DNA of 64,000 nucleotides, from the NCBI RefSeq assembly GCF_004346195.1, contig NZ_SMAK01000009.1:1-64000 (forward strand). Reading direction: 5' to 3'. Origin of the DNA: Tepidamorphus gemmatus. GTDB lineage: Bacteria; Pseudomonadota; Alphaproteobacteria; Rhizobiales; Tepidamorphaceae. The notes beneath the pieces were generated by a model. It was given only the letters and a program-made list of their open reading frames with translations, had not been told where the DNA came from and did no database searches. This document shows positions 32,424 to 36,405 of this stretch, piece after piece; position 1 is the stretch's first letter; each line of letters opens with the position of its first letter. The translations under genes and the position numbers were made by a program.

Positions 32424-32454
32424 GCCGCACTGAGCAATCCCGATGCTCAGCGGC
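32424..32454. terminator. hairpin between convergent prfC and extensin-like gene
   Basis: GCCG and CTGAGC pair with GCTCAG and CGGC around a 9-base loop, with a two-base bulge. It overlaps the stop codon of the minus-strand extensin-like gene. Lacking a T-run, it is only a possible terminator. The rest of the 200-base convergent gap is empty. Confidence 0.35.
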
Positions 32455-33112
32455 AGTACCGGTAGCTGTTGCCGGCATTGTGCCGCGCCAGATCGATGTG
32501 GAAATGATCCCGGTGCGCGGCATCGGCGTTCGGACCGAGGACGGTCGTGAACATGCCGCATGCGCCCTTGTGCACCTCGCGCAGGAAGGCACGCGCCGCC
32601 GGATCGCTGCCGTTCCAGTCGTTGAGCACGCTGATCGTGCGTCCGTCCGACAGGGTGAACGAGCCGATGTCCAGCGCGTTGCCGAAGGCATGCTCGGACA
32701 TCTTGGCGCCGAACTTGTGATTGCGGGTACGGCAGACATACGATCCCATGTTGCTGATGCCGGTCACATAGGCGCCGAGGTAGCGGACAGCCGCCGGCTG
32801 CACGCTGTGATACATCCAGCCGTCCACGGCATGGGTCATCGGACATGTCAGTATGGCTGGCGTGGAGAAGCCGACATAGCCACGCAGCGCCGCCGAAACC
32901 CTGATCGGTTGCCAGACCCCGCAAACCCCGCGATCGTTGATCCGCGACATCGGCTCGGCGTAGCTGGTACGCCGGATCGGCGTCTTGGCCATGCAGATCG
33001 CCTCGAAATCCTTGCGCCACGCCTGCTCGCGGTAGGCATAGCGCGAGCTGGTGCAGCCAGCGAAGACGAACAGGATCGTCGCAAGGACGACTGTGAGGGA
33101 GATGCGCGCCAT
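32447..33112 (-). CDS. extensin-like lipoprotein, LAS-peptidase fold
   Basis: A 221-residue protein with a lipoprotein signal (VVLATILFVFAGC, lipobox Cys near residue 20). The extensin-like C-terminal domain has VAGSYVCRTR-like ITGISNMGSYVCRTRNHKFG, then SEHAFGNALDIGSFTLSDG and AHRDHFHIDLARH; the His...Asp...His-x-His set is the zinc site of D-alanyl-D-alanine carboxypeptidase-fold (MepA/VanY-like) enzymes. Four to six cysteines suggest disulfides. A murein-remodelling role is likely but unproven. A second member of the family lies at 35347-36405. Confidence 0.85.
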   Translation of the reverse strand: MARISLTVVLATILFVFAGCTSSRYAYREQAWRKDFEAICMAKTPIRRTSYAEPMSRINDRGVCGVWQPIRVSAALRGYVGFSTPAILTCPMTHAVDGWMYHSVQPAAVRYLGAYVTGISNMGSYVCRTRNHKFGAKMSEHAFGNALDIGSFTLSDGRTISVLNDWNGSDPAARAFLREVHKGACGMFTTVLGPNADAAHRDHFHIDLARHNAGNSYRYCR

Positions 33113-33182: not shown

Positions 33183-34118
33183 TCAGCCGGGGCGCGCCTG
33201 TCCCGCCGCGCCGGCGAACAGGCCGGTCGGCCGCAACACGAGCAGGAAGGTGAGCACGGCGAACACCGCCACGTCGCGGAAATCTCCGGGAAACCAGGCA
33301 GACCAGAAGGATTCGAACACGCCGAGCAGCAGCGCCCCGGCGAAGGCCCCGCGCACCGATTCGAGCCCGCCGAGGATCGCCACGAACAGCGCCTTGGTGC
33401 CGATCATGAAGCCCATGTAGAAGCTTGCGCTGCCGTAGTAGAGCCCGATCAGCGCACCCGCCGCACCCGCATAGGCCGACGACAGCAGCATCGTCGTCGC
33501 GAAGACGCGGCCGGCATCGACACCGAGCAGTTCCGCCATCCTGAGATCCTGCGCGCAGGCCCGCCACAGCCGCCCGAAGCGCCTGCGGTCGATCAGCCAG
33601 ACCAGCGCCGCCGCCAGAGTCACGCAAAGCCCGAACACTGCCGCCTGCATGAACGTCACCTGCACCAGGAAGCCGGGCGCCTCGATGCTGAAGAGCGGCC
33701 GGACGAGCAGCGGCCTGATCCAGAGTTCGCGGCTTCCCGCGGCAAGCCGCATCGCCTCCTCCAGCATGATCGCAAGCCCGATGGTGGCAACCAGCATCGC
33801 CAGCGGCGGATGCCGGAGAAGCGGCCGTGCGACGAGGCGCCCGGCGACCGCTCCGGTCAATCCGGTCGACAGGACCGCGATCCCGCCGACGGCGAGGATC
33901 AGCACGCCGGTCGGCAGTCCGCTGCGCCCGATGAGGCCGCCCAGGCCACCGACCATCAGATAGCCGGCCCACATTGCCAACGCGCCGAAGGCCAGATTGA
34001 AGCGGCCGGTCATGCCGTGGAACAGCACGTAGGCGACCGCCACGAGCGCATAGAATGCGCTGACCTGAAGCGCGTTCAGGGTCTGCTGCAGCAGATAGGC
34101 CGCCTCCGCCGCACTCAT
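33183..34118 (-). CDS. orphan LivH-type ABC transporter permease
   Basis: A 311-residue permease with about eight hydrophobic helices, of the LivH family for branched-chain amino acids and related solutes: LNALQVSAFYALVAVAYVLFHGMTGRFNLAFGA at the start, LVATIGLAIMLEEAMRLAAG, and the EAA-like loop GVDAGRVFATTMLLSSAYAGAAGAL near the end. LivM, LivF, LivG and a binding protein are all absent from the neighbourhood, so its complex must be completed from elsewhere. The ATG at 34118 is preferred to a TTG 12 codons earlier. It diverges from a CGNR regulator across an inverted repeat, implying regulation by that protein. Confidence 0.85.
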   Translation of the reverse strand: MSAAEAAYLLQQTLNALQVSAFYALVAVAYVLFHGMTGRFNLAFGALAMWAGYLMVGGLGGLIGRSGLPTGVLILAVGGIAVLSTGLTGAVAGRLVARPLLRHPPLAMLVATIGLAIMLEEAMRLAAGSRELWIRPLLVRPLFSIEAPGFLVQVTFMQAAVFGLCVTLAAALVWLIDRRRFGRLWRACAQDLRMAELLGVDAGRVFATTMLLSSAYAGAAGALIGLYYGSASFYMGFMIGTKALFVAILGGLESVRGAFAGALLLGVFESFWSAWFPGDFRDVAVFAVLTFLLVLRPTGLFAGAAGQARPG

Positions 34119-34165
34119 CTCGGCACCTGCCCCCTGCGCCGCCCCTTGCGGCAACCATGCCGGGT

Positions 34166-34204
34166 ATCGTATCTAACTATCAAAGTGGAAGACAATAGTT
34201 ATAT
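34166..34204. promoter_or_regulatory. AT-rich inverted repeat between livH-type and CGNR genes
   Basis: TAACTAT (34174-34180) and ATAGTTA (34195-34201) form an inverted repeat, extended to 10-bp arms (34171-34180, 34195-34204) with one mismatch and a 14-base spacer. On the minus strand TTGTCT (34195-34190) and TACGAT (34171-34166) with an 18-base spacer could be the permease promoter; TTATAT at 34199-34204 could be the -10 of a leaderless CGNR transcript. The AT-rich patch stands out in this GC-rich region and looks like an operator. Confidence 0.6.
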
Positions 34205-34208
34205 CATC

Positions 34209-34841
34209 ATGCCATTTCCCTGGACCCGACGCCAGTTCGTCGGCGGCGCGCTGTGCCTGGATTTCACCAACACCGTCTACTATGCGGACGATCCCGCCCG
34301 ACGCGGCGACAGGCTGCACTCCGGCGAGGATCTCGCCGATTGGCTCCGTGCGGCCTGTCGCTTCGGCACCGCCGGCGCCTATCATCCGATGCTGGAACTG
34401 ACGGGCGACGCCTTCGATGCGGCCGCATTCGCCGATCTGCTGGTGCTGCGGCAAGCGGTCGACGACATGTTCCGATCCTGCGTCGCAGGGCGATCGCCGC
34501 CCCCTCTCTCCCTGCGCTTCATCCTCTATGCACTCGGCAGCACGATGTCCGCCGTCGAGATCGTCGCGACTGGCGATGGCTTCGCCCCTGCCACCGCCAG
34601 GTCTGTGGCAGCGTCGGCGGCGACCGCCCGCGCGGCGATCGCGCACTCGGCCCTGTCGCTCGCGCTATCGCCCGCCATCCGTCGCATCAAGCGCTGTCCC
34701 GCCTGCCACTGGCTGTTCGTCGATCGCTCGCGCAACACGAGTCGGGTCTGGTGCGACATGCTCACCTGCGGCAACCGGGCCAAGGCACGACGGCACCATC
34801 AGGTCCGCGCATCCAACCAGGATAACCACCATGACCAGTGA
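34209..34841 (+). CDS. CGNR zinc-finger (ABATE domain) regulator
   Basis: A 210-residue putative DNA-binding protein. The N-terminal ABATE-like region starts RRQFVGGALCLDFTNTV and contains HSGEDLADWL. The C-terminal CGNR zinc finger is complete: CPACHWLFVDRSRNTSRVWCDMLTCGNRAKARRH with Cys-x2-Cys and Cys-x4-Cys-Gly-Asn-Arg. Such proteins are presumed transcriptional regulators. The ATG is only about five bases past the inverted repeat, with no ribosome site, so a leaderless mRNA is possible. The stop overlaps the start region of the following lipoprotein gene. Confidence 0.85.
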   Translation: MPFPWTRRQFVGGALCLDFTNTVYYADDPARRGDRLHSGEDLADWLRAACRFGTAGAYHPMLELTGDAFDAAAFADLLVLRQAVDDMFRSCVAGRSPPPLSLRFILYALGSTMSAVEIVATGDGFAPATARSVAASAATARAAIAHSALSLALSPAIRRIKRCPACHWLFVDRSRNTSRVWCDMLTCGNRAKARRHHQVRASNQDNHHDQ

Positions 34842-35328
34842 CATCGGTTCATTCCTTCATCGGCTGGCCATGCTCGTCGCCCTCGTTGCGCTGCTGGCCC
34901 CTGCCGGCTGCGGCGACAGCGACGATGGCCCCTATGTCGAGATCGTCGGTGGCGGCTTCGTGTTCAACTACCGCATCGCCGAGGTCTTCTACGGCGTGAC
35001 TGTGGTGGCGCACCGGCCGTTGCCGCCCGGTGCCGAACTCACCGCCGAATTCGAGAATCCCGCCGGCGGGTCGCCGATCCGCGTCAGCCGTCAGGCCCGC
35101 GACAACCAGACCCGCTTCTCGCTCGACTCCGGACCGTTGCAGGGAGTGATGGCAGATCGGGACTATACCGTGGTCGTGACCCTGAGTGTCCCGTCGGGCG
35201 AGGTGCTGGAGACCCATACACGGGTGATCCGATCGAAGCTCGACCAGTCCGTGCTGCCAGAGCGCCCCCTGACCATCGGTCCCGGCTACACGCCCAATCC
35301 CGAAAACGCCGATGTGCGCGGCGAATAG
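34831..35328 (+). CDS. putative lipoprotein of unknown function
   Basis: A 165-residue protein that I do not recognise. It has a basic/hydrophobic start (FLHRLAMLVALVALLAPAGC) with a lipobox Cys near residue 28 followed by GDSDDG, an Asp at +3 that could affect sorting to the inner membrane. The rest is predicted beta-rich: YVEIVGGGFVFNYRIAEVFYGVTVVAHRPLP, then AELTAEFENPAGG and YTVVVTLSVPSGEVLETHTRV, like a small immunoglobulin-type sandwich. It overlaps the regulator gene by 11 bases, so the two are co-transcribed and perhaps translationally coupled. Confidence 0.68.
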   Translation: MTSDIGSFLHRLAMLVALVALLAPAGCGDSDDGPYVEIVGGGFVFNYRIAEVFYGVTVVAHRPLPPGAELTAEFENPAGGSPIRVSRQARDNQTRFSLDSGPLQGVMADRDYTVVVTLSVPSGEVLETHTRVIRSKLDQSVLPERPLTIGPGYTPNPENADVRGE

Positions 35329-35346: not shown

Positions 35347-36405
35347 CTACTGGCAGAAGGTCGTGCGCCCGTCGGCGCCGCGCCGCTGCAGGTCAAGATG
35401 CAGATGATCCTGGTGAAAGGCGTCGGCTTCGGGGCCGAGCACCGTCGTGAACGGACCGCATGCGGCTGCGTGGACACGCCTGAGGAACTCGCCTTCAGGC
35501 CCGTCGCCGGTCCAGTCGGATCCGACCGCGACAATCCGCCCGTCCGCAAGCTCGAAGGCGGAGATGTCGATCGCGTTGGCGAGCCCGTGCTCGCTCGGGC
35601 GGGTGTCCGGCTCGCCGTTGCGCGTGCGGCAGACATACGACCCGGCGACATGCAACGTCGCAAGAGACGCATCCAGTAGCTCGACGGCGGCCGGTTCGAC
35701 GACCCGTTCGACGAATTCGTCGAGCCGCTCCGCGATGGCGCAGTTGACCACCGCTTCGGGCTCCAGCCGCACCGACCGGCTCGAGCCGACGAACGATATT
35801 GCATAGATCGCCGGCACCGGACAGGCGCTGTCGCGAACGGGCGGCAACGGACGCCCGGACACGCGCGCCTCCTCGATCGCCGGACAGGCGGGCGAAAGCC
35901 CCTCCCCGAGGTCCTCCAGCGGTGGCGGCTGCGACGGCTCGTCCTCGCCGGCGGTATGATCGGGCGGCTCGGACGGACCCGCCGAAGCGGGCGCCTCCGC
36001 TGCCTTGGCGCCGTCGGCTGGCGTGGCATCGGCTGCCGGCGCGTCGGGGGACCCCGCCGTCCCGGAAACCGCGTCCCGCGAACCTCCGGCATCCGACCCG
36101 GAGTCGGCCGGCGCGACGCCGGGCGTGTCGGTCGGACTCGGTCCATCGCCGGTGCCGGCGGGGCGTTCTGCGGGCAGGGGCACGCTGCCCGGCCGCGCTT
36201 GCGGCAATGGTGGCCCGCCTGCGGGCGCGCGGTCCGTGTCGCGGTCAGGACGCGGTTGCGGCAGCGGCGGCGCGGTGTCGGACTGAGCCAGCCGCACATC
36301 GCCGAAGGTCGGCCGCTCCGGCGGCAGCGGCACATCGGCCTCGCTGCCGGCGACCTCGAGCGGCAATACCAGGGCCAGGATCACTCCCGCGACACGCGCG
36401 CGCAT
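35347..36405 (-). CDS. extensin-like protein with Pro-rich region
   Basis: A 352-residue secreted protein: signal peptide (RVAGVILALVLPLEVAGSEA), then about 135 residues rich in Pro, Ala, Gly and Asp with repeated PLPPERP/PLPQPRP/PLPQARP/PLPAERP motifs, and the C-terminal extensin-like domain. The latter shows VAGSYVCRTRNGE, RPSEHGLANAIDISAFELADG and AFHQDHLHLDLQRRG, conserving the zinc-type His...Asp...His-x-His set. It is a paralogue of 32447-33112 with an added linker that could span the periplasm or peptidoglycan. Convergent with the lipoprotein gene, 18 bases apart. Confidence 0.85.
   Translation of the reverse strand: MRARVAGVILALVLPLEVAGSEADVPLPPERPTFGDVRLAQSDTAPPLPQPRPDRDTDRAPAGGPPLPQARPGSVPLPAERPAGTGDGPSPTDTPGVAPADSGSDAGGSRDAVSGTAGSPDAPAADATPADGAKAAEAPASAGPSEPPDHTAGEDEPSQPPPLEDLGEGLSPACPAIEEARVSGRPLPPVRDSACPVPAIYAISFVGSSRSVRLEPEAVVNCAIAERLDEFVERVVEPAAVELLDASLATLHVAGSYVCRTRNGEPDTRPSEHGLANAIDISAFELADGRIVAVGSDWTGDGPEGEFLRRVHAAACGPFTTVLGPEADAFHQDHLHLDLQRRGADGRTTFCQ

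Follow-up and report, generated by a model that had tools for sequence, protein, structure and literature searches.

A LivH-like permease paralogue with its own periplasmic protein: a possible add-on to the branched-chain amino-acid importer

A permease gene in the window, the 64,000-nucleotide stretch of Tepidamorphus gemmatus DNA that was analysed, was assigned to a clade of LivH paralogues, here called LivH2, which recurs in relatives beside or fused to an anchored periplasmic protein and in some lineages with a CGNR regulator. Comparison with these relatives brought out the unit, the clade, a fusion, co-occurrence with canonical LivH and a dyad before the regulator gene. Tentatively, and with slightly less than even confidence, the whole is read as a widespread add-on to the LIV importer, in which a second LivH would share LivM, LivF and LivG and bring an anchored periplasmic protein of its own (in one branch this would make it a multi-pass permease lipidated at the N-terminus), with two unrelated domains in the same role and, in some lineages, a CGNR regulator acting on TAAC-N20-GTTA. 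No description of the LivH2 unit was found in the open-licence papers searched and, as far as that literature reaches, the unit is an undescribed variant of the LIV importer family.

Gene content of the locus

The three genes of the initial annotation, a permease, a CGNR regulator and a small exported protein, were all present. LivH2, a LivH-like permease paralogue of 311 aa (33183..34118, minus strand), has no ABC neighbour and matched PF02653 (E 1.7e-28, 100 bits, cut-off 26.8). Across an intergenic gap of 90 bp lies the gene for an ABATE/CGNR zinc-finger regulator of 210 aa (34209..34841, plus strand), with both domains above cut-off (PF07336 ABATE, 56.8 bits against 24.4; PF11706 zf-CGNR, 57.3 bits against 24). 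As had been annotated, its frame overlaps that of the third gene, by 11 bp. The latter (34831..35328, plus strand) encodes a type I Ig-like periplasmic anchored protein of 165 aa, a probable lipoprotein. The unit is bracketed by two extensin-like C-terminal (PF06904) genes at 32447-33112 and 35347-36405; such genes also flank the type I protein in three relatives, where it stands by itself (G006, G007) or together with CGNR, the permease being absent (G004).

Recurrence and gene order in relatives

The type I profile gave 74 named loci, nine of them by their titles gamma-, beta- or muproteobacterial bins and the rest alphaproteobacterial. A permease of the LivH2 kind adjoined the type I protein, directly or across the CGNR gene, in 26 of the 74, and clustering made this permease the commonest neighbour family of the type I protein. 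For the 23 loci with both genes called (the gap measurement left out L122, L148 and L155 of the 26), 12 pairs were divergent and 11 co-directional, and 17 gaps of less than 100 bp and 4 overlaps were recorded.

The CGNR gene joined the pair in three gene orders and in one fused form (L218). The order LivH/CGNR-lipoprotein, the slash standing at the divergence seen in the window, was found in the window, in Propylenella binzhouense (L105, same genome as L193) and in eight genomes of family f23 (G029, L187, L189, L202, L204, L205, L206, L208). The order CGNR-LivH/lipoprotein was found in L155 and CGNR/LivH-lipoprotein in L153, L162, L163 and L177; in L141 and G004 the CGNR gene lay beside the type I protein alone. 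Lutibaculum baratangense (L136) has the permease with the type I protein. The gene orders were thus reshuffled yet the association was retained, which is the pattern expected of functional linkage, and by this comparison of gene neighbourhoods the unit of permease, CGNR regulator and periplasmic protein is real. The proposal of one regulated unit in the initial annotation therefore held up: its three families occur together in relatives, in several orders, and the dyad described below sits between divergent genes.

The pair is not obligate: in 48 of the 74 named loci no such permease lay beside the type I protein, a contig end truncating a few of these loci (L147, L174). Many of the permease-less loci adjoin genes read as ilvB/ilvN; ilvB/ilvN-like and LysE-type exporter genes, and in some cases nitrile-hydratase-like genes, were seen at L112, L127, L158, L171, L172 and others without LivH2.

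The permease clade

A quick permease tree was built from 98 permeases, with long-branch warnings for some rows, after rows of fewer than 250 residues, four fragment or near-copy loci, two off-target stretches and L164 (broken permease) had been left out. Canonical LivH formed one clade (SH-aLRT 100), and the type I-linked and fused permeases together formed the second, LivH2 (SH-aLRT 95; fused 94, type I 93), the L121 permease being placed without resolution. The alternative considered in the initial annotation, that the permease clusters with a complete Liv set, was thus not borne out, LivH2 being placed apart from canonical LivH. Against the NCBIfam LivH equivalog the window permease scored 165 bits, below the value of 379, which canonical LivH of Alphaproteobacteria may not reach either.

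Among the best-conserved stretches of LivH2, and kept in both of its branches, is the loop GRxWRAxxxDxxxAxLxG, which, given the BtuC-like fold of the permease, is probably the ATPase-coupling loop. Seven residues (R39, F44, E121, R124, W133, W185 and R281, window numbering) set LivH2 apart from LivH, each branch of LivH2 showing them at 78-100%. The structure of a fused relative was predicted with good scores (pLDDT 91.7, pTM 0.88). A PDB sequence search with the permease gave no relative at E 0.001, and a collection scan with the window permease gave no match.

Type I periplasmic protein

The 165-aa protein matched no Pfam or NCBIfam family at E <= 1, and a PDB search with its profile gave a best E of 0.035 or worse. 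By profile search, 57 of the 397 genomes sampled in the order have the type I family; one of these is a weak match (G362, E 9.6e-4, stops inside) that was counted there and excluded from the genus test given below. The predicted model (pLDDT 91.9) is a single Ig-like sandwich of seven beta strands with helices only at both ends, and two alpha/beta lobes around a ligand cleft are absent from it.

Lipoboxes were examined in 65 of 75 type I proteins. Among the copies beside LivH2, 20 of 24 passed the lipobox pattern; the window copy was among the failures, its lipobox being PAGC. Since PAGC fails the strict pattern, lipoprotein status is likely but not certain for the window copy, so that of the original description, a lipoprotein of unrecognised family, the second half stands with respect to Pfam and NCBIfam and the first is only likely. 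Type I copies elsewhere failed the pattern in 25 of 41 cases, most of these being read as having an N-terminal membrane helix. From these N-termini the type I protein would be held at the membrane, by lipid or by a helix. The further suggestion that the lipoprotein acts as a receptor is, in the usual sense of the word, unsupported, since the model is a single Ig-like sandwich and the protein also stands without the permease in 48 of 74 loci. At one locus (L152:6343-7411) a tandem pair of Ig-like proteins adjoins one LivH2.

Type II domain and permease fusion

In four relatives the permease is encoded in a single open reading frame whose product has an N-terminal extension of about 130 residues beginning with a lipobox. 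A profile of this type II domain gave matches in 88 of the 397 genomes sampled in the order. The domain was found 53 times in open frames of 400 codons or more, with the permease in the same frame in 50 (28 in one set and 22 of 25 in the other); the three long-frame proteins without a permease within about 2 kb are G033, G167 and G197. Short-frame type II proteins had no permease at 12 of 13 fetched loci. Type II domains without a nearby permease were seen at L239-L245, L247-L251, L277, L289 and L292, and L221 has a frame break in the permease part of its fused gene. The lipobox pattern was met in 26 of the 27 fused proteins examined (out of 28), although in a few the pattern first matched a different cysteine. 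A CGNR gene lies directly before the fused gene in L218, and none was found directly before the type II gene in the 25 further long-frame loci.

Homology of the type II domain to the type I protein was considered and rejected, because the profile alignment covers only the signal and lipobox part (25 columns, probability 37). The predicted models also look different, the type I protein being an Ig-like sandwich and the type II domain a curved sheet for which even the best match to a single domain is weak (Z 5.4). As the two types are not detectably related, the fusion argues for a link between permease and type I protein by analogy, not as a case of the same protein. Types I and II were never observed in one genome (12.6 expected, p 1.7e-7 over 397 genomes, ignoring descent), and neither were type I and the fusion (7.2 expected, p 2e-4 with 50 fusions, ignoring descent). 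From this mutual absence, together with the lack of homology, two unrelated periplasmic domains seem to fill the same place in different lineages. In three genomes, G001 with type I and G019 and G058 with type II, the module adjoins a gene read as threonine-dehydratase-like.

Canonical LIV genes in carrier genomes

The genome of the window has 38 PF02653 matches, of which, by coordinates, 36 form 18 neighbouring pairs. The window gene is one of the two singles; the other lies between ATPase-like and binding-protein-like genes, as read at locus L102. The permease is therefore without its usual ABC partners, as had been noted initially, and the coordinates of the PF02653 matches also gave no LivM without a LivH in this genome. 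On a different contig the genome has a complete canonical Liv operon (LivH-LivM-LivG-LivF-small protein-LivK).

Liv-type partners stood beside LivH2 in 1 of 40 loci examined, L161, where a complete Liv operon is followed by LivH2 and a type I protein and then by a second LivK-like gene (L161:335-8754). Among the 74 type I loci, too, LivM, LivG, LivF or LivK was found at the strict threshold only in L161. Other ABC ATPases, 22-29% identical to LivF/LivG, occurred in the flanks of 6 of the 40 LivH2 loci and probably belong to other transporters.

Canonical LivH was present in all 23 genomes tested behind the 26 LivH2 loci, a test that left out three further Sneathiella loci. In the sample of the order it was present in 264 of 397 genomes: in 57/57 type I genomes (56/56 without the weak match G362) and 50/50 fusion genomes, against 157/290 with neither type I nor the fusion (Fisher p 1e-11 for type I and 3e-10 for fusions, with no correction for phylogeny). 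By genus the association of type I with canonical LivH had p 2.5e-6, likewise with no correction for phylogeny, and within the family to which the window's genome belongs the two occur together in six genomes and are both missing from two. Short-frame type II genomes had canonical LivH in 27 of 35 cases and lacked it in 8 at the threshold used. Of the named loci, these tests cover those with LivH2, alongside the order sample; Gamma- and Betaproteobacteria are among the named loci without LivH2. Since canonical LivH is present in all counted carriers of type I and of the fusion, dependence of the module on the canonical LIV complex is the most economical interpretation.

CGNR regulator and candidate operator

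The inverted repeat between the divergent genes has 10-bp arms with one mismatch (34171-34180 and 34195-34204). Its existence, reported in the initial annotation as an AT-rich repeat, is confirmed, and by itself it is not significant, 22 of 300 simulated regions (first-order Markov, as in all simulations here) scoring as well. Its core is a 28-bp dyad, TAAC-N20-GTTA (34174..34201, no strand assigned), proposed as the CGNR operator. It lies 7 bp upstream of the start codon of the CGNR gene, and 55 bp separate it from that of the permease gene.

The dyad recurs before related CGNR genes. Of 27 regions upstream of CGNR genes, 13 had the exact form, as did 8 of the 20 representatives that share less than 70% identity, counts that include the regions from which the dyad was chosen by eye (the window, G029, G004 and L218). 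Simulated sets contained none in 488 of 500 cases and never more than two, and the next-best combination of 4-mer palindrome and spacing reached four. In held-out CGNR regions the exact dyad was found in 4 of 16 (simulated sets: at most 1 in 1000), or 2 of 14 without the f23 kin. Inexact forms precede other CGNR genes of the unit, with one mismatch in L105, two in L141, L153, L162, L163 and L177, and three in L155. In the window's own genome a version of the pattern with one more fixed base had two occurrences, and the window site alone can be read on both strands; genome-wide enrichment was not seen there, a backwards-read control giving similar numbers, and no copy was found at the Liv operon of that genome. 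A scan for sigma-70 promoters and terminators around the dyad gave none.

LivH2 regions without a nearby CGNR gene had the dyad in 1 of 20 (L111; L087 and L136 are one locus counted twice), and in the L111 genome an unlinked CGNR gene is preceded by a dyad with one mismatch. Five extra CGNR regions gave the exact dyad once (L273). CGNR genes away from the unit with the exact dyad upstream were seen at L063, L069 and L273, so the site may be general for the CGNR family. Its recurrence before CGNR genes supports DNA binding by the CGNR protein. As no CGNR match was present in 14 of 17 LivH2 genomes without a linked CGNR gene, the regulator is taken, on its distribution, as a local switch of the unit in some lineages only.

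Proposed function and alternatives

With about even confidence, we infer that LivH2 and its lipoprotein form an alternative permease module of the LIV importer that borrows LivM, LivF and LivG and is switched by the CGNR regulator. In LivH2, the LivH subunit of the LIV ABC importer, which takes up branched-chain amino acids, would have an old paralogue that comes with an anchored periplasmic partner dedicated to it, supplied as a separate Ig-like protein (type I) or as an unrelated N-terminal fusion (type II). Most likely it has no ATPase of its own and assembles with canonical LivM/LivF/LivG, replacing LivH or standing beside it, by which the importer would gain another permease half that differs in its substrates or in docking. 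Shaping or gating of the outer face is the probable role of the periplasmic protein, which in genomes without LivH2 may also serve the canonical complex alone. The CGNR protein, present only in some lineages, would bind the 28-bp dyad between the divergent genes and switch both directions, probably in response to a ligand of the ABATE domain.

Two other readings are unlikely, to much the same degree. LivH2 could be a homodimeric importer with its ATPase encoded elsewhere and with the periplasmic protein as its receptor or as a dock for the receptor; the coupling loop is kept, the permease part resembles BtuC, a homodimer, the residues specific to LivH2 suggest independent function, and some other ABC ATPase lies in the flanks of 6/40 loci. 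Liv-type partners are, however, near LivH2 in only 1/40 loci, the predicted model of the periplasmic protein is not two-lobed, and the canonical LivH of all counted carriers would be left unexplained. This last observation, like the lack of adjoining Liv-type partners, would fit a LivH2 and periplasmic protein that regulate or sense the LIV importer as a non-transporting decoy or inhibitor, but the conservation of both permease fold and coupling loop throughout a deep clade exceeds what a decoy would need.

If LivH2 were a channel or facilitator that works without ATP and is opened by the periplasmic protein, the strongly conserved coupling loop would be useless, and co-occurrence with canonical LivH would again go unexplained; such a channel is considered quite improbable, even though no Liv-type ATPase adjoins LivH2 and a lipidated or anchored periplasmic domain lies beside it or is fused to it. 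Adjacency by chance or by inherited gene order alone is the least probable reading by far: gene order is in any case shared among related genomes, and the type I protein is also found without the permease, but the variety of orders and orientations, the existence of a fusion and the return of the association in different alphaproteobacterial groups contradict it.

If the alternative-permease reading is true, exchange in ABC importers of this class is not confined to the binding protein but extends to a permease half, and lipoproteins include some multi-pass permeases. It is easy to take a LivH2 gene for ordinary LivH, and the dyad offers a concrete, testable operator proposal for ABATE/CGNR regulators.

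Comparison with known systems

The window regulator has the same two domains as Jann_2411, an ABATE/CGNR protein of known structure that was proposed as a ligand-sensing transcription regulator, with ABC-transport neighbours noted (PMC2954205). The passages of that paper considered here describe neither an operator nor this unit, and leave the ABATE/CGNR ligand open.

For the type I protein the closest fold was that of the Ig-like beta-sandwich domains of GH2 enzymes such as LacZ (Z 10.0, 106 residues, rmsd 3.2). Unlike those domains, which share 13% identity with it, the type I protein is membrane-anchored and has no enzyme attached, and likeness of fold does not reveal a function.

In the fused relative L097 the permease part resembles BtuC, the permease of the vitamin B12 importer (Z 16.7, 254 residues, rmsd 4.4), at 18% identity; BtuC works as a homodimer and pairs with its own ATPase, BtuD. 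Another of the closest known systems is the LIV-I importer, whose LivH is called BraD in Pseudomonas and Rhizobium. LivH2 and the canonical LivH of the same genome are 36% identical, both belong to PF02653 and both have the same coupling-loop pattern, but LivH2 differs from LivH in its separate clade, its altered residues, the absence of adjoining LivM/F/G/K except in L161, and its own anchored periplasmic protein or N-terminal lipobox domain.
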